DNA of 64,000 nucleotides from the NCBI RefSeq assembly GCF_003194605.1, contig NZ_QHKY01000003.1, positions 62,001-126,000 on the forward strand, given 5' to 3'. Below the pieces are notes generated by a model. That model saw nothing but the letters and a program-made list of their open reading frames with translations, did no database searches and was not told where the DNA came from. The translations under genes and the position numbers were made by a program. The DNA is from Nocardioides gilvus. Its GTDB lineage: Bacteria > Actinomycetota > Actinomycetes > Propionibacteriales > Nocardioidaceae. Below are positions 4,890 through 27,044 of this stretch, in pieces (position 1 is the stretch's first letter; each line of letters begins with the position of its first letter).

Positions 4890-8089
<3,200 letters not shown>

Positions 8090-18070: not shown

Positions 18071-19129
18071 TCAGGCGACGACAGTCGTGATCGGCTGGCT
18101 CGAGTCGGCGGGCAGGTCGAGCGCGGAGGGCGTACGTCCCCTGGCCACGAGCTCGGCGCCCAGCGCGGCGACCATCGCGCCGTTGTCGGTGCACAGACCC
18201 GGACGCGGCACCCGGACCCGGATCCCCTTGGCCTCGGCCCGCTCGGTGGCCATCGCCCGCAGGCGGGTGTTGGCGGCCACGCCACCCCCGATCAGGATGT
18301 CCTCGATGCCGTGCGACAGCGCTGCGTCGACAGCCTTGCGGGTCAGGACGTCACAGACAGCCTCCTGGAACGAGGCAGCCACGTCGGCCACGTCGATCGG
18401 CTCGCCGGCGCGCTGCTTGGCCTCGACCCAGCGGGCGACCGCAGTCTTGAGGCCCGAGAACGAGAAGTCGTAACGATGCCGCTCGAGGTCTCGCCGCGAC
18501 GTCAGCCCCCGCGGGAAGTCGATCGCGATGCTGTTGCCGCTGGCCGCCGTACGGTCGATGTGCGGGCCACCGGGGAAACCGAGGCCGAGCAGCCGGGCCA
18601 CCTTGTCGAAGGCCTCGCCGGCCGCGTCGTCGATGGTGGCGCCGAGGGGGTCGACACCCACCGTCACGTCGGTGACCTTGAGCAGGCTGGAGTGGCCACC
18701 GGAGACCAGCATGGCCAGGCAGGGTTCGGGCAGCGGCCCGTGCTCCAACTGGTCGACGGCCACGTGGGCGGCCAGGTGGTTGACCCCGTAGATCGGCTTG
18801 CCCAGGCCCCACGCCAGCGCCTTGGCCGCACCGACCCCGACCAACAGCGCACCGGCGAGCCCCGGACCTGAGGTCACCGCGACGGCGTCGATGTCATTGA
18901 GCTTGATCCCGGCGGTCTCGCAGGCCCGCTCGATCGTCGGGACCATCGCCTCGAGGTGGGCTCGGCTGGCGACCTCCGGCACCACGCCCCCGAACCGCGC
19001 ATGTTCCTCGACGCTGCTGGCCACGGCGTCGGCGAGCAGGGTGTGGCCCCGCACGATCCCGACCCCGGTCTCGTCGCACGAGGTCTCGATGCCCAGCACC
19101 AGCGGCCCGTGAGCAGATGCGTCCTTCAT
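18071..19129 (-). CDS. tsaD: tRNA N6-adenosine threonylcarbamoyltransferase TsaD
   Basis: 352 residues. Transfers threonylcarbamoyl from TC-AMP to A37 of ANN-decoding tRNAs (t6A), with TsaB and TsaE. ASKHA fold: [15 protein letters not shown] at the start, metal-binding His pair in [69 protein letters not shown] and [12 protein letters not shown] overlaps the rimI stop (ATGA). The other two t6A genes of the same operon, tsaB and tsaE, are upstream, so the whole late pathway except TsaC is encoded here. Confidence 0.97.
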
Positions 19130-19626
19130 GGCTCCATCCTCCCTGACCCGGACGGGTCACTGTCCAGCGGCGGCAGGTCACGCTGCAGGACGAGGGCATC
19201 CGAGCCGTCACGGTAGTAGTGGCCGCGGCGGTCGATCTCGACGAACCCGCAGCGTGAGTAGAAGGCCAGGGCCGCGGCGTTCGCCACGCTGACCTCGAGC
19301 AGCATCCGGTCGGCGCCCGACTCCCGCGCTCCCCTCAGGGCAGCGTCGAGCAGCGTGCTCGCGATCCCGCTGCGCTGGAGGCGCGCGGCCACCCCGATCC
19401 GGAGCAGCTCCGCGAAATCGCCCTGCACCCCGGTCAGCGCGTACCCGACCACGGCCCGGTCAGGCTCCTCGGACTCGGTCACCAGGAGGCGGCGTCCGGG
19501 CGTGCTGGCCAGCTCGGCCAGTGCCTGCGCGCTCCACGCCTCCGCGCCGAAGAGCGACTGTTCGAGGAGCGCCAGATCCGCCAGGTCTGACAGGTCTGTC
19601 GGGCCGACGAGTCGCAGCGCGCTCAC
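19126..19626 (-). CDS. rimI: RimI-like ribosomal protein S18 / protein N-terminal acetyltransferase
   Basis: 166 residues from the GTG at 19624-19626, which overlaps the tsaB stop as GTGA; the frame runs on upstream but that part is a shadow of tsaB. GNAT fold: [27 protein letters not shown] carries the acetyl-CoA loop (usual Q/RxxGxG/A) and [29 protein letters not shown] is the conserved C-terminal RimI block with the Asn and Tyr residues used in catalysis. Acetylates N-terminal residues, S18 in E. coli. Located between tsaB and tsaD as in many actinobacteria. Confidence 0.92.
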
Positions 19627-20258
19627 GAGACGCGCTTGGGCGCAGGCGGTGCCACCGCGTCCGGGCGGCGCAGGTAGAGCGGTTCGGGGTCGAGCAGCTC
19701 GGCACGCTCCTCGGTCACCACCCGCGCCAGCCACCCCGCGCTCGGCCGGGCCGGGCCGACCGGACGGGGGAACGAGTCCGGGTAGAGCAGGGCGCCCTCC
19801 CCCACCACCGGCAGGTCGCTGGCGGCGACGGCAGGCTTCAGCACCGCAGGCCCGTCGGTGCGTACGCCGTCACGGTAGGAGGCGATGTAGACCTCCTTGC
19901 GGCGCGCGTCGGTGGCGACCAGGAAGTCGCCCTCCACGGCTCCCGTGTCGTAGGCCTCGACCGCCAGCACGTCGAGCGTGCACACCGCGTAGACCGGGAT
20001 CTCCAGGGCCAACGCCAGCGTGCGGGCGGTGACCAGCCCGACCCGCAGACCCGTGAAGGGGCCCGGCCCGGCGCCGACCGCGATGGCGGTGAGGTCCTGC
20101 CGCACGAGACCGGCCTGACGGGTGACCGCGTCGATCAGCGGCGCCAGGGATTCCCCGTGCTTCATCGGGCGGTCGGAGACCTGCTCGGCGATCACTTCGT
20201 TGCCGTCGTGGAGGGCCACGGTGACCAGCGGGGTGGCGGTGTCGAAGGCGAGGAGCAT
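19623..20258 (-). CDS. tsaB: tRNA threonylcarbamoyladenosine biosynthesis protein TsaB
   Basis: 211 residues. Inactive ASKHA paralogue of TsaD that scaffolds the TsaB-TsaD-TsaE complex. Signature elements: LAFDTATPLVTVAL, KHGESLAPLIDAVTRQAG, VGAGPGPFTGLRVGLVTARTLALAL (hallmark GPGSFTGLR-like block) and LVATDARRKEVYIASY. Ends with YLRRPDAV, also typical. GTGA overlap with rimI downstream; 9 bases after the tsaE-fusion stop. Confidence 0.95.
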   Translation of the reverse strand: MLLAFDTATPLVTVALHDGNEVIAEQVSDRPMKHGESLAPLIDAVTRQAGLVRQDLTAIAVGAGPGPFTGLRVGLVTARTLALALEIPVYAVCTLDVLAVEAYDTGAVEGDFLVATDARRKEVYIASYRDGVRTDGPAVLKPAVAASDLPVVGEGALLYPDSFPRPVGPARPSAGWLARVVTEERAELLDPEPLYLRRPDAVAPPAPKRVS

Positions 20259-20267
20259 TGCTCGAGG

Positions 20268-21203
20268 CTACTGCTCGTCCACCCAGGCGAACTCGACCAC
20301 CCGAGGGTCGTGGTCCTCCAGCGAGCCGTCGCCTGTCCCGGTCGTCCCGGTCGCCACGTCGCCACCGAGCGCACGGGTGATGGTGACCTCGAGGCGACGC
20401 GTCGACAGGCCCTCTGCCACGCCCGCGCCCCACTCGACCACGGTGACCGCCTCGTCCAGGGAGGCGTCGAGGTCGAGGTCGTCCAGTTCATCGATGCCGC
20501 CCAGACGATAGGCGTCGACGTGCACGAGGTCCGGGCCCTCACTCAGGGACGGGTGGACCCGGGCGATCACGAAGGTGGGCGAGGTGATCCCGGGTCGTAC
20601 GCCCAGGCCGTCACCGAGCCCCTGGGTGAAGGTGGTCTTGCCTGCGCCCAGCTCGCCGCTGAGCACGAGCACGTCCCCAGCCTCCAGCAGCAGACCGACC
20701 CGACGCCCCAGGTCGCGCATCTGCTCGGCGTCGGTGACCACGTGCCTGGGCGGCAGCGCGAGTCGCAGTTGCAGGTATGGCGGGCGACCGGGCTCCTGCT
20801 CGAAACCCTTGGCGAGCCAGAAGTCGACGGTCTGCGGCATCTCCGCGCGGGCCAGCACGGTGAGGGAACGATGCGTGGGGACCGCCTCGACGGCCGCCTC
20901 GACCAGCACCGAGGCAATCCCCTTGCCCTGGGCATCGGGGTGGACGCCGAAACGGCGCAGGAAGACGGTGTCGGTGCGTACGTCGAGCAGTGCCGTGCCC
21001 ACCGGCTCTCCACCCAGGCGCACCAGCAGACCACGCGCTCGGCCGAGGCTCTTCGCGATCGTCGCCGGGGTCTCCGCGAGGGCGTCAGCCGGCGGGTCCA
21101 TCGGCGGGCGTGCCTCGAAGGCCGCCCGGACCACCGCGTGCACGTCGGTGGCAGCCTCGGCCCCGACGCGCTCGACCGTGACCGACCCCGCTGCTGAACT
21201 CAT
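20268..21203 (-). CDS. tsaE: GNAT acetyltransferase - TsaE ATPase fusion protein
   Basis: 311 residues from the ATG at 21201-21203, which overlaps the hydrolase stop (ATGA). Two domains in one frame: residues about 8-150 are a GNAT acetyltransferase (VFLRRFGVHPDAQGKGIASVLVEAA has the acetyl-CoA loop; TVDFWLAKGFEQE is the C-terminal motif), and residues about 155-300 are TsaE (Walker A GELGAGKTT at 183-191, GITSPTFVIARVHP, VHVDAYRLGG, and the Walker-B-like VVEWGAGVAEGL). TsaE alone is about 150 residues. TsaE hydrolyses ATP to recycle the TsaB-TsaD complex in t6A synthesis. The fused GNAT domain is extra; a separate RimI is encoded two genes on. The stop of the fusion is 9 bases ahead of tsaB. 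Confidence 0.92.
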   Translation of the reverse strand: MSSAAGSVTVERVGAEAATDVHAVVRAAFEARPPMDPPADALAETPATIAKSLGRARGLLVRLGGEPVGTALLDVRTDTVFLRRFGVHPDAQGKGIASVLVEAAVEAVPTHRSLTVLARAEMPQTVDFWLAKGFEQEPGRPPYLQLRLALPPRHVVTDAEQMRDLGRRVGLLLEAGDVLVLSGELGAGKTTFTQGLGDGLGVRPGITSPTFVIARVHPSLSEGPDLVHVDAYRLGGIDELDDLDLDASLDEAVTVVEWGAGVAEGLSTRRLEVTITRALGGDVATGTTGTGDGSLEDHDPRVVEFAWVDEQ

Positions 21204-22258
21204 CCCGCGACTTCCCGGGCCAGGCTCGCGGCACGGTCGAAGAGCTCGTCGAGCTCGGCGTTGACCTCGACGTGACTCTCGAGCATCACCATGTGGCCGG
21301 CGTTCACCACTTCGAACAGCTCCGAGCCGGGGATCCGTGAGTGCAGTTTGCGGCTGTGGCCGATCCCGGTGAGTTTGTCGAGCCTGCCGCCGATCACCGT
21401 GCAGGGCACCTTGCCCAGGGCAGCCAGTCGGTCGTAGTGGTTCAGCGAGGCGAACGAGGGATAGAAGTCGGCGACCACGTCGAACGAGGTCGCGTCGATC
21501 ATCTCGAAGACGAAGTCGGCGTAGTTGCGGGGCACGTCCACCCCGAAGGCGAAGTTGTCGACCACGGTCTGGGCGATCCGGGCACCCACCGAGCGGGCGC
21601 GGTCGACGACCATGTGCCCGCGGTCGAGGACCCGGACCAGCCGACCGATGGCCCGTCCGCTCAGCGATCCCAACGGGACCATCGGGAAGAGGATCCGACC
21701 CGGGTCGAGCCCGCCGGCCGTCGTGCCGATCAGGGCACTGCCGACGACCTTCTCCCCGAAGAGCTCGGGGAACTGCCCGGCCAACGAGATCAGGCTCATC
21801 CCACCCATCGAGTGGCCGACCACCACCACGGGGCCGCCCTCGCTGGTGGTCTCGATGATCCGCTTGAGGTCGCGTCCCAGCTGGTCGATCGTGCAGTTGC
21901 TGCCCTTGGAGCGCGCGGAACGACCGTGCGAGCGTTGGTCGTAGTAGACCGTACGGACCAGGCCCCGGTAGGCAGCGCGCTGGAAGTGCCAACAGTCCAG
22001 GTTGAGGGTGAAGCCGTGCACGAAGATGACGGTGAGGCCGTTGCCGTGCCCGGGGTCGGGCTCGTCGATCTCGACGTGCAGGTCGATGCCGTCGTCGGTG
22101 ACCACCTTCATGGAGGGGCCACGCAGCTCACCGAAGGGGGTCTCGTCCCCGGCGCCGGGCCGACCCTGGACCTTCTGCACGGCGCGTGCGGTGGCCCCGG
22201 CGGCGGCGACGCCCACCAGGCCGGCGGCGACTCCCCATGCTTTGCGTTGGCGACTCAC
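21200..22258 (-). CDS. Membrane-anchored alpha/beta hydrolase
   Basis: 352 residues from the GTG at 22256-22258, which overlaps the alr stop (GTGA). An N-terminal hydrophobic segment (residues about 6-23, WGVAAGLVGVAAAGATA) probably anchors it or acts as a signal peptide. Alpha/beta-hydrolase core: oxyanion loop FVHGFTLNLD, nucleophile elbow VVVGHSMGGMS (Ser), Asp in GGRLDKLTGIGHSR, His in VVNAGHMVMLESH: complete catalytic triad. Substrate unknown. In actinobacteria a hydrolase of this type is regularly found between alr and tsaE, so the position is conserved although the role is not known. Confidence 0.85.
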   Translation of the reverse strand: MSRQRKAWGVAAGLVGVAAAGATARAVQKVQGRPGAGDETPFGELRGPSMKVVTDDGIDLHVEIDEPDPGHGNGLTVIFVHGFTLNLDCWHFQRAAYRGLVRTVYYDQRSHGRSARSKGSNCTIDQLGRDLKRIIETTSEGGPVVVVGHSMGGMSLISLAGQFPELFGEKVVGSALIGTTAGGLDPGRILFPMVPLGSLSGRAIGRLVRVLDRGHMVVDRARSVGARIAQTVVDNFAFGVDVPRNYADFVFEMIDATSFDVVADFYPSFASLNHYDRLAALGKVPCTVIGGRLDKLTGIGHSRKLHSRIPGSELFEVVNAGHMVMLESHVEVNAELDELFDRAASLAREVAG

Positions 22259-23400
22259 GGTCGGCCCTTTCCGACGTACCGGCGGGTCAGGCGTCCGCCG
22301 ACACCGGTCACGATCTCGTAGTTGATGGTGCCCACAGCCTCGGCCCAGTCCTGGGCGGTCGGCTCGCCGTCGGCACCGCTGCCGAAGAGCACGTACGTGG
22401 CCCCGGGGTCCGGCCGGTCCCCCTGGAGGTCGATGACCAACTGGTCCATGCAGACCTTGCCTCGCACCGGTCGGCGACGCCCGGCCACCCACGCCTCGGC
22501 GCCGGGGCTCGCGGCCCTGGGGATCCCGTCCGCGTAACCGACCGGGACCAGCCCCACGGTGGTGGCGGCCGGTGCGACCCAGGCGTGTCCGTAGGACACC
22601 CCGGCGCCGGCTTCGATCTCCTTGACCAGGGAGAGGCGTCCCTGCACGGTCATGGCCGGGACCAACCCGATGTCGGGTGTCACCCCGGGCGCCGGATCGA
22701 GGCCGTAGACGGCGATGCCGCAGCGCACGAGGTCGTGACGCAGGCCCGGATTCATCACGGCTGCCGCCGAGTTGGCGATGTGACGCACCTCGAGCTCGAG
22801 GCCCGCCGCCTCAGCCACCTTGAGCGCGTGGTCGAACCGCTCGGCCTGGGTGGTGTTGGCCGGGTGCTCGGGCTCGTCGCTGGCGACGAGGTGCGACCAG
22901 ACTCCGACGACCCGGATCGCGCCCGTCTCCTCGACCGCCCGCGAGTGGGCACACAACTCGGGCCACTGCAGCGCGGTGGCTCCCCCACGGGAGAGGCCGG
23001 TGTCGATCTTGAGGTGCACACGCGCCGTACGTCCCTGGGCGGCGGCCTCCGCAGCGATCGCGTCGACCTCGGGGATCGTGTAGGCAGCGACGTCGACGTC
23101 GGCGGCGAGCACCGCGGCGTACGAGTCACCCGGCGCGGTGAGCCAGCTCAACAGGCGTCCGGTGTCGCCGGCAGCCCGGAGCGAGACGGCTTCTTCGGGG
23201 GTGGCCACACCCAGCCATTCGGCGCCTGCGGCGCGCGCAGTGGCGGCAACCTCCACCATCCCGTGGCCGTACGCATCGGCCTTCACGACGGCCATCAGGG
23301 CTGCCGGGGCGACGCGCTCCCTCAGGATGGCCACGTTGTGGGCGATGGCGTCGAGGTCCACGACCATCTCGGCACGTGCGGTGGCCGCCCGATCAGTCAT
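22255..23400 (-). CDS. alr: Alanine racemase
   Basis: 381 residues. PLP enzyme interconverting L- and D-alanine for peptidoglycan. N-terminal barrel starts VVDLDAIAHNVAILRERV; catalytic Lys in VVKADAYGHG; barrel residues VHLKIDTGLSRGG and HIANSAAAVM; RCGIAVYGLDPAPG; second catalytic base Tyr in AGVSYGHAW; C-terminal VGYADGIPR and GKVCMDQLVIDL. ATG overlaps the nnr stop (ATGA). Part of the acpS-nnr-alr-hydrolase-tsaE run. Confidence 0.97.
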   Translation of the reverse strand: MTDRAATARAEMVVDLDAIAHNVAILRERVAPAALMAVVKADAYGHGMVEVAATARAAGAEWLGVATPEEAVSLRAAGDTGRLLSWLTAPGDSYAAVLAADVDVAAYTIPEVDAIAAEAAAQGRTARVHLKIDTGLSRGGATALQWPELCAHSRAVEETGAIRVVGVWSHLVASDEPEHPANTTQAERFDHALKVAEAAGLELEVRHIANSAAAVMNPGLRHDLVRCGIAVYGLDPAPGVTPDIGLVPAMTVQGRLSLVKEIEAGAGVSYGHAWVAPAATTVGLVPVGYADGIPRAASPGAEAWVAGRRRPVRGKVCMDQLVIDLQGDRPDPGATYVLFGSGADGEPTAQDWAEAVGTINYEIVTGVGGRLTRRYVGKGRP

Positions 23401-24827
23401 GCAGGCGATTCTCTCATTCCCACCGCGAGGTCGCGCACCGAACCCGGTAGGAGGCGTGCCACGTCGCTCGCCACCAAGGGCCCACCTCCGGCGGCCCGCT
23501 CGGCAGCGGCACCGTGCAGCCAGGCTCCGACCGAGGCCGCGTCGAGAAGGTCGAGGCCCGCCGCCAGCAGCGCACCGATGAGCCCGGTGAGCACGTCGCC
23601 GGCGCCAGCGGTGGCCAGCCAGGGCGTGCCGGTGGGATTCACCCGGACCCGACCCGTCGGCGAGACCACGACCGTCCGGGACCCCTTGAGAAGCACGCAG
23701 GCCCCGAACCTCTCGGCGGCGTGGGCGGCGTGGCGCAACGGTGCCGCCTCGACCTCGTCGCGGCCCACGTCGAGCATCGCTGCGAGCTCACCCGCGTGCG
23801 GAGTCAGGACGACCCGGTGGTCGTGACCCGGGACCAGGTGTCCGGAGGCGTGGGCCAGGGCATCGGCGTCCACGACGACCGGCACGCCGTCGGCCAGCGC
23901 CGCAGCCAGGGCATCGCCCGCCCCTTCGGCTCCCCCGGAGCCGACGGCCCAGGCCTGGACCTGACCGGCACCGACGACCTCGGGAAAACGTCTGCGCACG
24001 TCACGCTCGACGTCCACCTGACCGACGTACCTGACCATCCCGACCAGGCCGGTCGCTGCGCCCGCGACACAGAGCGAGGCTGCACCCGGATAGGTGGGCG
24101 AACCGGCCCGTACGCCGACGACGCCGCGGGTGTACTTGTGGTCCCGGCGCTGCGGGAGGGGCAGCAGCGCCGCCACGTCCCGGGCCTCGAGGACCTCGAT
24201 CACGGGCTCCGGCAGTGCCAGACCGATGTCGAGGAGCACCACGTCTCCGCAGGCGCTGGCCGCCGGATCGACGAGGGTGGCGACCTTGTGCGTGCCGAAC
24301 GTGATCGTCAGCTCCGCGGTGACGTGGGTGGCCGGCGTCTCACCGCTCTCCGTGTCCACGCCGGAGGGAAGGTCCACCGCGATCACCGGCGCCCCGGCCA
24401 GGGCGGCCAGCGCCGCTTCGGCGTCGGGACGCAGCCCCGGATGTCCACCGATGCCGACGATCCCGTCGACGACGACCTGCGGGTCGAACCGTCGAGCCTC
24501 GTCGAGGTCGATCAGCCGTGCCCCGGCCGCTCGAGCCGCCACCAGGCCAGCCGGATGCGGCGAGTCGCCCAGCGGCAGCATCCGCACCGCGACTCCGCGC
24601 CCGGCCAGCCAGGCGCCCGCGAAGAGCGCGTCGCCCCCGTTGTTGCCGCTGCCCACGAGCAGCAGCACGCGAGTGCCGTACGTACGCCCGTGGCGAGCGC
24701 GCAGGAAGTCGGCGATGCAATGGGCAAGTCCCGTGGCGGCTCGGGCCATCAGGGCACCGTCATCGAGCTCGTCCAGCAGCACGGCCTCCGCCGTCCTGAT
24801 CTGCTCAACCCGGTGCGCCGACAACAT
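23397..24827 (-). CDS. nnr: Bifunctional NAD(P)HX epimerase / ADP-dependent NAD(P)HX dehydratase
   Basis: 476 residues, two repair enzymes in one chain. N-terminal YjeF_N epimerase, residues about 1-205: LLLVGSGNNGGDALFAGAWLAGRG binds NAD(P)HX, VVDGIVGIG and VIAVDLPSGVDTESG complete the fold. C-terminal ribokinase-like dehydratase, residues about 215-470: VVGVRAGSPTYPGAASL, VVVDADAL, VLTPHAGELA, LLKGSRTVV and the catalytic WLATAGAGDVLTGLIGALLA. Repairs hydrated NADH/NADPH. Starts three bases after the acpS stop; ends in an ATGA overlap with alr. Confidence 0.95.
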   Translation of the reverse strand: MLSAHRVEQIRTAEAVLLDELDDGALMARAATGLAHCIADFLRARHGRTYGTRVLLLVGSGNNGGDALFAGAWLAGRGVAVRMLPLGDSPHPAGLVAARAAGARLIDLDEARRFDPQVVVDGIVGIGGHPGLRPDAEAALAALAGAPVIAVDLPSGVDTESGETPATHVTAELTITFGTHKVATLVDPAASACGDVVLLDIGLALPEPVIEVLEARDVAALLPLPQRRDHKYTRGVVGVRAGSPTYPGAASLCVAGAATGLVGMVRYVGQVDVERDVRRRFPEVVGAGQVQAWAVGSGGAEGAGDALAAALADGVPVVVDADALAHASGHLVPGHDHRVVLTPHAGELAAMLDVGRDEVEAAPLRHAAHAAERFGACVLLKGSRTVVVSPTGRVRVNPTGTPWLATAGAGDVLTGLIGALLAAGLDLLDAASVGAWLHGAAAERAAGGGPLVASDVARLLPGSVRDLAVGMRESPA

Positions 24828-24830
24828 CCC

Positions 24831-25184
24831 TCAGCCCTCCAGCACGACCATCGCCGTGGCGATGCCGGCGTCGTGGGACAGGGAGAGATGGAGGTGCGCG
24901 ACCCCGAGCTCGGCGGCTCGGGCCGCGACCGTGCCCCGGATCTCGAACCGGGGCCGACCCGACTCCTCGGAGACCACCTCGGCGTCGTGCCACGCCAGCC
25001 CGGCGGGCGCGCCGAGCGCCTTGGCGAGGGCCTCCTTCGCCGCGAACCGCGCCGCCAGGGAGGCCGGCGGACGCTCACGTTCGGCGTCGGTGAAGAGCTT
25101 GACGCGCAGCCCCGGAGTGCGTGCGAGTGACTCAGCGAACCGATCGATGTCCGCCACGTCGATGCCCACTCCGATCACTGCCAT
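24831..25184 (-). CDS. acpS: Holo-[acyl-carrier-protein] synthase
   Basis: 117 residues. Transfers 4'-phosphopantetheine from CoA to the Ser of acyl carrier protein. Conserved [13 protein letters not shown] with the Mg-binding Asp, and [13 protein letters not shown] with the catalytic Glu/Lys helix; closing block [17 protein letters not shown]. Starts 15 bases after glmS and is followed 3 bases later by nnr. Confidence 0.95.
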
Positions 25185-25199: not shown

Positions 25200-27044
25200 T
25201 CATTCGACCGTGACGGACTTGGCCAGGTTGCGGGGCTGGTCGACGTCGTGACCCATGGCCGTGGCCAGCTCGCAGGCGAAGAGCTGCAGCGGCACGACAG
25301 CGACCAACGGCTGGAGCAGGACCGGGACCTTCGGCAGGCGGATCAGGGCATCGGCGTACGGAGCGATCGTCTCGTCGTCCTCCTCGGCCAGGCAGATGGT
25401 GTGGGCTCCGCGGGCACGTACTTCCTGGATGCCGCTCAGCATCTTGTCGTGCAGCTGGTCGCGCCCCCGTGGCGGCACGATGCAGAAGATCGGCATGCCC
25501 TGGTCGATCAGCGCGATCGGCCCGTGCTTGAGCTCCCCGGCCGCGAAACCCTCGGCGTGGATGTAGGCCAGCTCCTTGAGCTTCAGCGCACCCTCGAGGG
25601 CCACCGGGTAGCCGGCGTGACGGCCGAGGAAGAGCACCGAACGGGTGTCGACGTGGCTGCGGGCGAAGTCGTACACCTGGTCGGCCTGGTCGAGCACCGT
25701 CTGGATGTGCTCGGGCATCTCGTCGAGCTGGTCCATCACCGTGTTGATCTCGTCGCCGAACAAGGTGCCCTTGACCTGCGCCAGGTAGAGCGCGAGGAGG
25801 TAGACGGCCACCAACTGGGTGACGTACCCCTTGGTCGAGGCGACGCCGATCTCCGGGCCCGCGTGGGTGTAGATGACGCCGTCGGACTCGCGCGGGATGG
25901 TCGATCCGTTGGTGTTGCAGATCGCCAGGACCTTGGAGCGCTGGACGCGCGCGTGCCGGATCGCCTGCAGGGTGTCGGCGGTCTCGCCCGACTGACTGAT
26001 GGCCACCACCAGGGTGGAGTGGGTCAGGATCGGGTCGCGGTAGCGGAACTCGCTGGCCAGCTCGACCTCGACGCTGATCCGGGTCCAGTGCTCGATCGCG
26101 TACTTGGCGACCATGCCCGCGTAGAAGGAGGTGCCGGCCGCGATGATGATGATCTTGTCGATGTCGCGCAGTTCGGAGTCGTCCAGGCGCATCTCGTCGA
26201 GCTTGAGGAGTCCGGCGTCGTCACGGCGGCCCAGCAGCGAGTCGGCCACGGCACGCGGCTGCTCGAAGATCTCCTTGCGCATGAACCAGTCGTGGCCGTC
26301 CTTCTCGGCGGCAGTCAGGTCCCAGTCGACGTGGTACTGCTTGCCCTCGGCAGGCGTCCCGTCGAAGCCGGTGATCTCCACGCCCTCCGCGGTGATCGTG
26401 ACGACCTGGTCCTGACCCAGCTCGAGCGCCTCGCGGGTGTGCTCGATGAAGGCAGCGACGTCGGAGCCGAGAAAGTTTTCACCCTCGCCCAGGCCCACGA
26501 CCAGCGGCGAGTTGCGGCGTGCGGCGACCACACGTGAGGGGTCCTGACCGTCGAGCGCGACCAGGGTGAAGGCACCCTCGAGGCGACGACAGACATTCTG
26601 CATCGCGACGGTAAGGTCATGGCCGGCCTCCACCTCGAGCTCGAGCAGGTGGGCGGCGATCTCCGTGTCGGTCTCGGAGAGGAAGACGTGTCCGGCGTCC
26701 TCGAGCTCTGAACGGAGCTGGGCGAAGTTCTCGATGATGCCGTTGTGCACGACCGCCAGACGACGGTGCTCACCCAGGTGCGGGTGGGCGTTCGCGTCGT
26801 TCGGGGCTCCGTGGGTCGCCCAGCGGGTGTGGCCGATGCCGGTGCAGGACTCCGGGAGCCCGGACTCGGCGAGGGCCGCCTCGAGGTTCGCCAGCTTGCC
26901 GGCGCGCTTGTCCCACGCCACCGCGCCTTCGTGCGCGAGAGCCACCCCGGCCGAGTCGTATCCCCGGTACTCGAGCCTGCGCAGGCCCTCGACGACAACG
27001 CTCTGAGCCTGCTTGGCTCCCACATACCCCACGATTCCGCACAT
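25200..27044 (-). CDS. glmS: Glutamine-fructose-6-phosphate aminotransferase (isomerizing)
   Basis: 614 residues, usual length. Makes glucosamine-6-phosphate for cell-wall synthesis. Glutaminase half: Cys2 nucleophile in MCGIVGYVG, RLEYRGYDSAGV, GHTRWATHGAPN and VVHNGIIEN. Synthase half: two SIS domains with AAGTSFYAGMVAKYAIE and SQSGETADTLQAIRHAR, LGRHAGYPVALEGALKLKE, HAEGFAAGELKHGPIALID, and the C-terminal NLAKSVTVE tail that closes the active site. First gene of the long operon running to tsaD. TAGACT lies 8 bases upstream of the ATG, so a leaderless mRNA is likely; no glmS ribozyme is seen, as expected outside Firmicutes. Confidence 0.97.
   Translation of the reverse strand: MCGIVGYVGAKQAQSVVVEGLRRLEYRGYDSAGVALAHEGAVAWDKRAGKLANLEAALAESGLPESCTGIGHTRWATHGAPNDANAHPHLGEHRRLAVVHNGIIENFAQLRSELEDAGHVFLSETDTEIAAHLLELEVEAGHDLTVAMQNVCRRLEGAFTLVALDGQDPSRVVAARRNSPLVVGLGEGENFLGSDVAAFIEHTREALELGQDQVVTITAEGVEITGFDGTPAEGKQYHVDWDLTAAEKDGHDWFMRKEIFEQPRAVADSLLGRRDDAGLLKLDEMRLDDSELRDIDKIIIIAAGTSFYAGMVAKYAIEHWTRISVEVELASEFRYRDPILTHSTLVVAISQSGETADTLQAIRHARVQRSKVLAICNTNGSTIPRESDGVIYTHAGPEIGVASTKGYVTQLVAVYLLALYLAQVKGTLFGDEINTVMDQLDEMPEHIQTVLDQADQVYDFARSHVDTRSVLFLGRHAGYPVALEGALKLKELAYIHAEGFAAGELKHGPIALIDQGMPIFCIVPPRGRDQLHDKMLSGIQEVRARGAHTICLAEEDDETIAPYADALIRLPKVPVLLQPLVAVVPLQLFACELATAMGHDVDQPRNLAKSVTVE

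Follow-up and report, generated by a model that had tools for sequence, protein, structure and literature searches.

TsaE is a near-universal bacterial ATPase that acts in a tRNA modification on which accurate decoding depends. A review describes how TsaE binds at the TsaD–TsaB interface and excludes tRNA while it is bound, and how ATP hydrolysis then releases TsaE and resets the complex (PMC9654439). Acetyltransferase genes have been joined to the same machinery in the form of tsaB-rimI fusions, which the accessible sections of two papers report for M. leprae, Bordetella and Neisseria (PMC4926160, PMC5335608). A literature search for a fusion of a GNAT acetyltransferase with TsaE found no paper, its coverage of subscription journals being poor, and public protein databases may well list this architecture. 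Here we describe such a fusion encoded in the window, by which we mean the whole stretch of 64,000 nucleotides of Nocardioides gilvus DNA that was analyzed.

Gene, protein and operon

The fusion gene occupies positions 20268–21203 on the minus strand, where it forms a single open frame of 311 residues with an ATG start at 21203. Translation of the plus strand of 20268–21203 gave no protein of the GNAT–TsaE kind. A preliminary description, which did not mention the strand, had proposed one continuous frame with a complete GNAT domain followed by a complete TsaE, and this was borne out by the translation, Pfam and NCBIfam models and structure matches. The GNAT acetyltransferase domain covers residues 7–150 (20754–21185, minus strand), with a match to Acetyltransf_1 (PF00583) at residues 54–114 (38.8 bits, cut-off 20.7). 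The TsaE domain covers residues 153–311 (20271–20747, minus strand) and matches PF02367 at residues 157–277 (111.2 bits, cut-off 26.6) as well as the NCBIfam TsaE model TIGR00150 (80.6 bits, cut-off 60.1). The protein also scores over the curated cut-offs of PF13508 and PF13673. The acetyl-CoA (pyrophosphate) loop Q-G-K-G-I-A at residues 92–97 (20913–20930, minus strand) and the Walker A motif GELGAGKTT of TsaE at residues 183–191 (20631–20657, minus strand) were found where they had been placed before. In an alignment of 27 sequences Gly183 and Leu185–Thr191 of the Walker A motif are invariant.

An AlphaFold2 model built from a 27-row alignment contains both domains, with a mean pLDDT of 85.7 and a pTM of 0.74, and Foldseek matched it to TsaE/YdiB structures and to GNATs. 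In a comparison with PDB entries, residues 6–150 aligned with 3f0a, a GNAT with acetyl-CoA, over 145 residues at 1.9 Å (Z 19.1), and residues 149–311 with the TsaE/YdiB structure 5np9 over 138 residues at 2.5 Å (Z 18.8). In the model the two domains are joined without a linker, the strand at 143–149 continuing almost directly into the strand at 153–156. The fusion is the only TsaE in the genome that scores over the family cut-off, next to one other weak P-loop match below it. Taken together, we are highly confident that the gene encodes one polypeptide with a predicted working TsaE.

The surrounding genes are all on the minus strand and have the order glmS (25200–27044; TIGR01135, 803.8 bits), acpS (24831–25184; NF000832, 179.1 bits), a NAD(P)H-hydrate dehydratase/epimerase gene (23397–24827; TIGR00196, 134.4 bits, over 129.85; TIGR00197, 78.8 bits, under 88.6), alr (22255–23400; TIGR00492, 292.5 bits), an alpha/beta-hydrolase gene (21200–22150, 5′ end not fixed; PF12697, 78.3 bits), GNAT–TsaE, tsaB (19623–20258; TIGR03725, 184.8 bits, cut-off 69.3), rimI (19126–19647, start approximate; TIGR01575, 83.2 bits) and tsaD (18071–19129; TIGR03723, 411.9 bits). 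The start codon of the fusion gene and the stop codon of the hydrolase gene overlap in the sequence ATGA at 21200–21203 (minus strand). The preliminary description was also right in stating that RimI is encoded separately in the same operon: an ordinary rimI, the best in the genome although slightly under the curated cut-off of 86.4 bits, lies two genes downstream of the fusion. The slot behind the hydrolase gene is common to seven intact fusion loci (L109–L115) and to lone TsaE loci, and RimI is encoded nearby in all seven of these fusion loci, in L115 on the opposite strand. No tRNA genes were found in the 64-kb window.

Distribution, conservation and decay

In a survey of 96 genomes that included N. 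gilvus, 57 of the 58 other Nocardioides genomes gave a match, in every case across both domains, and the single one without a match is an 85% complete draft. Since the two-domain frame is found again in this many genomes, the fusion is not a chance event, and its recurrence rules out that it is private to the N. gilvus genome or an assembly error. It is not an annotation slip either. In the rest of the Propionibacteriales all 37 genomes matched, 32 of them across both domains (exceptions G062, G075, G080, G086 and G092). A survey of the class gave matches in 393 of 393 genomes, and 45 of these matches extend over the GNAT and the TsaE domain. Of the 45, 39 come from the 40 genomes of the home family, where the locus of the remaining genome, G398, is truncated at the end of a contig, two from three genomes of the Propionibacteriaceae, and four from 350 genomes outside the order, i.e. 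G100 in family f9 and G103, G138 and G151 in family f12. The full fusion is present in three of the eight genomes of f12. Elsewhere in the class a lone TsaE occupies the same operon slot (L116–L121, L123). In the phylum 285 of 296 genomes matched, and among the matches listed only two extend over the GNAT and TsaE domains, the two coming from the home family; a TsaE fused to an unlike GNAT would appear as a lone TsaE in this survey. A plasmid collection gave 21 matching records, none covering 80% of the query and none with a named fusion. As judged from these genome sequences, GNAT–TsaE is the form in which TsaE normally occurs in the Propionibacteriales, a point that the preliminary description did not make.

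Some loci show peculiarities of their own. G067 carries a second, weaker TsaE-like match (G067:C1:3253470-3253910) beside a full fusion. In Nocardioides alcanivorans (L059) the fusion extends over two frames, covering residues 7–102 and 111–309, which is either an assembly error or a real frameshift. The Mobilicoccus MAG S5R_Sa_22 contains tsaE at two loci (L053 and L061), of which one is unfused and the other is a fusion that groups with a Propionibacteriaceae genome; this MAG is probably a mixed bin.

Conservation was examined in 140 distinct frames from all loci collected in which TsaE is preceded by 115 residues or more. Frames with a GNAT score of at least 85 bits were regarded as intact fusions, a threshold that favors conserved rows and is reached by 112 of the 140. 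The other 28 consist of 16 decayed loci from the Propionibacteriaceae and 12 further frames, namely L159, the frameshifted L059, and cases of TsaE standing alone or joined to Alr whose upstream frame is unrelated. Phe29, Arg84, Gly95, Arg119 and Trp129 are invariant in all 112 distinct intact fusions. Arg32 and Glu121 are each present in 109, and Glu121 is replaced by Pro or Ala in the three f12 fusions. The pattern Q/R-x-x-G-x-G/A, which we take to describe the acetyl-CoA loop, was found in 106 of the 112, with exceptions at one position in L049, L051, L055, L111, L151 and L156.

The catalytic Glu and Tyr of RimI are presumably those known as E103 and Y115 in the enterobacterial enzyme. When these positions are read by eye from a Gly-Phe pair, they correspond to Leu117 and Trp129 in the fusion, and to Glu and Tyr in the RimI of the window. 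Trp129 (20817–20819, minus strand) would then occupy the position of what we assume to be the general-acid Tyr of RimI and many GNATs, a residue that is not universal. With an invariant Trp at this position and a hydrophobic residue at that of the RimI Glu, catalysis would need another base, for which Glu121 is a candidate.

Ten closely related pairs of intact fusions, chosen by eye among 25 rows, had dN/dS ratios of 0.08–0.30 in the GNAT half and 0.08–0.32 in the TsaE half. More distant pairs among these 25 closest 'intact' rows, some of which are one genome represented twice, reached 1.02 in the GNAT half. By contrast, two unfused Williamsia rows in the 'intact' list gave 7.0 over a stretch that is not GNAT. 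We consider it likely that the GNAT half binds acetyl-CoA in the intact members, and probable, with less confidence, that it is an active acetyltransferase.

The Propionibacteriaceae deviate from this pattern. In this family 115 of 117 genomes matched, 80 across both domains and 35 not; the latter belong to g5 (nine), g9 (five), g134 (seven), g146 (eight), g140 (three, of which G552 ends at a contig end), g143 (two) and g151 (one, weak). Twenty-two of these 35 loci were examined (L104–L108, L160–L176). In g134 and g146 TsaE has lost the frame in front of it, and the lone TsaE frames measure 165–174 residues (three g134 loci) and 195–200 residues (three g146 loci). In g5 and g9 (L104–L108, L170–L174, L176) a domain roughly as long as a GNAT still precedes TsaE, but in none of the 11 loci can an acetyl-CoA loop be recognized. 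An hhalign comparison of ten decayed g5/g9 domains with the intact GNAT gave a probability of 96.8 and an E-value of 2.9e-10. The remnants in g140, g143 and g151 are without the N-terminal part or the Arg-x-Glu residues. Among the 16 decayed loci the loop is absent in 12 (L168 included) and kept in L167, L169 and L175, and L166 has the glycines but not the Gln/Arg. Of the nine decayed loci scanned with Pfam, L166, L167, L169 and L175 score over the GNAT cut-off and L170 barely, and L104, L106, L108 and L168 do not. The preliminary description had named loss of acetyl-CoA-binding residues across orthologues as an argument against a fused acetyltransferase; such loss did occur in this minority of Propionibacteriaceae loci, but it does not extend to the 106 intact fusions in which the loop is preserved.

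Ten pairs among the g5 loci L104, L105, L107, L174 and L176 gave dN/dS ratios of 0.17–0.29 for the N-domain and 0.04–0.10 for TsaE. For 11 further g5 pairs, which involve L106 or L173 and have poor alignments with synonymous sites near saturation, the N-domain gave 0.38–1.06 or no value and TsaE 0.11–0.27, and six g9 pairs gave 0.39–0.53 and 0.14–0.21, respectively. By these ratios the remnant in g5 and g9 is translated and constrained, although less than TsaE. Decay occurred more than once, since a TsaD tree pairs a decayed g140 locus with an intact one (100/96). Because the GNAT half has decayed in several Propionibacteriaceae and was dropped in g134 and g146, it appears to be an accessory and dispensable module.

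Possible functions of the GNAT half

In the explanation that we propose, the TsaE half would perform the usual ATP-driven reset of TsaB–TsaD during the synthesis of t6A. The GNAT half would be a catalytically competent acetyl-CoA enzyme, distinct from RimI, that acts where TsaE takes it. Its acceptor could be a protein or a small molecule at or near the TsaB–TsaD–TsaE complex. A GNAT attached to the N-terminus of TsaE would be carried to the TsaB–TsaD complex in each cycle, which suggests an acceptor at that place. The GNAT activity would be accessory and not needed by t6A synthesis, and this would explain why some Propionibacteriaceae let the GNAT decay or lost it. Whatever the acceptor, a working TsaE with an active, dispensable, non-RimI GNAT is the reading towards which we lean. 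That the acceptor belongs to the t6A machinery itself is a tentative suggestion that we regard as doubtful. The RimI of M. tuberculosis gives reason for caution in assuming such targets, since it acetylates a TsaD peptide but not folded TsaB–TsaD or GroES, as described in the available part of PMC4926160.

Alternatively, the GNAT half may not be used as an enzyme but serve as a regulatory domain, either one that binds acetyl-CoA or a purely structural one, and alter the ATPase cycle of TsaE or its docking on TsaB–TsaD. The predicted absence of a linker between the domains and the replacement of Tyr by Trp would agree with this. The g5 and g9 domains are kept and constrained without the loop, the former with low N-domain ratios in ten pairs from five loci, and the profile comparison links them to the intact GNAT; for these domains a structural role fits better than an enzymatic one. 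However, in the intact members the residues on the acceptor side vary no more than the cofactor loop does, and a pure sensor need not keep them. Moreover, the decayed domains evolve about two to four times more freely than TsaE, the 11 poorly aligning g5 pairs give higher N-domain ratios or no value, and g134 and g146 manage without the domain. We consider this use of the GNAT half unlikely. Less probable still is the wider proposal that the t6A ATPase of the Propionibacteriales is equipped with an acetyl-CoA sensor or writer of its own, which would make t6A turnover follow acetyl-CoA supply, and that in several lineages this module turned into a pseudo-enzyme kept for regulation alone. If it is true, the fusions are a natural series in which a domain attached to an essential protein goes from enzyme to pseudo-enzyme and is finally lost.

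A low probability, equal to that of the regulatory domain, is assigned to a fusion of neighboring genes without shared function. In this scenario a GNAT gene for a small-molecule acceptor entered between the hydrolase gene and tsaE and overlapped tsaE by a few bases, after which a small indel joined both; the halves would share only a promoter and a chain. An arrangement as expected before the last step is found in G106 (L159, 5500–5900), where in the usual operon the GNAT frame has its stop at 5806–5808 and the TsaE frame starts with a GTG at 5805, giving a 4-base overlap GTGA. This looks like a pre-fusion stage or a later split, but a one-base error in the draft assembly would look identical, and the spacing is near that of the fused forms. 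In G125 (L158, 3197–3637, minus strand) a free GNAT relative of 146 residues is encoded between proB and proA, behind obgE. With 108.9 bits it is the closest free relative with a fixed stop that was found, and its setting hints at a possible amino-acid-like acceptor.

The origin of the fusion was examined with a tree built from 65 domains, of which 27 are fused, 1 is adjacent, 21 are free and 16 are RimI. The fused rows form a 98/93 group that is joined only by L159, L158 and L197. Two separate origins were considered because this first tree required two changes, but a single clade of fusions, compared on 32 of the 65 rows, was not rejected (AU p 0.47, or 0.38 with L159 included). A single origin would suit a neighbor fusion. 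TsaE and TsaD trees are too poorly resolved to date the event. The persistence of the fusion across the order with few breaks suggests, against a neighbor fusion, that the joint has some use. If the GNAT is nevertheless unrelated to t6A, the locus is a tidy case of operon neighbors that were fused and later unpicked.

It is very unlikely that the fusion is a second RimI that acetylates the N-terminus of S18, TsaD or other operon products. Such a function might be expected from the published tsaB-rimI fusions and from M. tuberculosis RimI, which according to the accessible sections of PMC4926160 accepts peptides of TsaD, GroES and GroEL1 as acetylation substrates and is an interaction partner of TsaD in vivo. 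RimI structures are indeed among the near shape matches of the GNAT domain (5isv, Z 18.7; 2cnm, Z 17.9), alongside many other GNATs. However, in the 65-domain tree a 99/93 branch separates the 16 RimI rows from the rest of the tree, which contains the fused GNATs. When the RimI model TIGR01575 was run across the genome, the fused GNAT ranked 16th of 17 matches with 19.6 bits, against 83.5 bits for the RimI of the operon; it missed the cut-off of 86.4, and the whole protein was not listed at an E-value of 0.001. Tree, score and the replaced catalytic positions rule out a RimI duplication as the source of the fused GNAT. Furthermore, a RimI gene is still close by in each of the seven intact fusion loci examined. 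The acetylation of ribosomal protein S18 that the preliminary description had envisaged is unlikely in view of the low RimI score and the altered catalytic positions, and the analysis yielded nothing in favor of the other targets suggested there, such as TsaB, TsaD or tRNA.

Finally, the production of two proteins from one frame, with TsaE also made alone through an internal start or cleavage, is regarded as extremely unlikely. Met162 is present in 52 of 58 fused sequences, but the same Met occurs within the first helix of lone TsaE proteins and is therefore structural, and initiation there would remove the first strand. A start codon with a Shine-Dalgarno-like site at the GNAT–TsaE junction was found in none of 58 fused genes, whereas the corresponding numbers for three control stretches were 3, 6 and 3, so that the internal start considered in the preliminary description was rejected as not supported.

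Comparison with known systems

A whole order attaches an enzyme of another kind to TsaE, and nature offers controls: fusions that are intact, remnants without the cofactor loop, losses of the whole domain and a relative that is free. With this series a link between acetyl-CoA and t6A is directly testable.

GNAT–TsaE is a new architecture of a known ATPase, whereas tsaB-rimI fusions were already published. With known TsaE/YjeE proteins (PF02367, TIGR00150; B. subtilis YdiB, 5np9; T. maritima TsaE, 6n9a) it shares a complete TsaE domain, the Walker A motif and an operon with TsaB and TsaD, and the structure matches have 31–34% identity to the fusion over the TsaE domain; known members are about 150 residues long and stand alone, whereas the fusion adds 150 GNAT residues in front. 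RimI (TIGR01575, the S18-alanine N-acetyltransferase) has the GNAT fold and is encoded in the same operon, but it belongs to another clade, its catalytic positions are replaced in the fusion, and it is itself present nearby. The free GNAT of G125 is a relative in sequence, yet it consists of 146 residues alone, lies in another operon and has a Phe at the Tyr/Trp position. In G421 (L122, 5100–7355, minus strand) one frame in the same operon slot encodes alanine racemase and TsaE; here too an N-terminal neighbor is fused to TsaE, but with a different partner, which makes it an unrelated fusion. The tsaB-rimI fusions likewise join a GNAT to a t6A subunit, but they involve another subunit and another GNAT.
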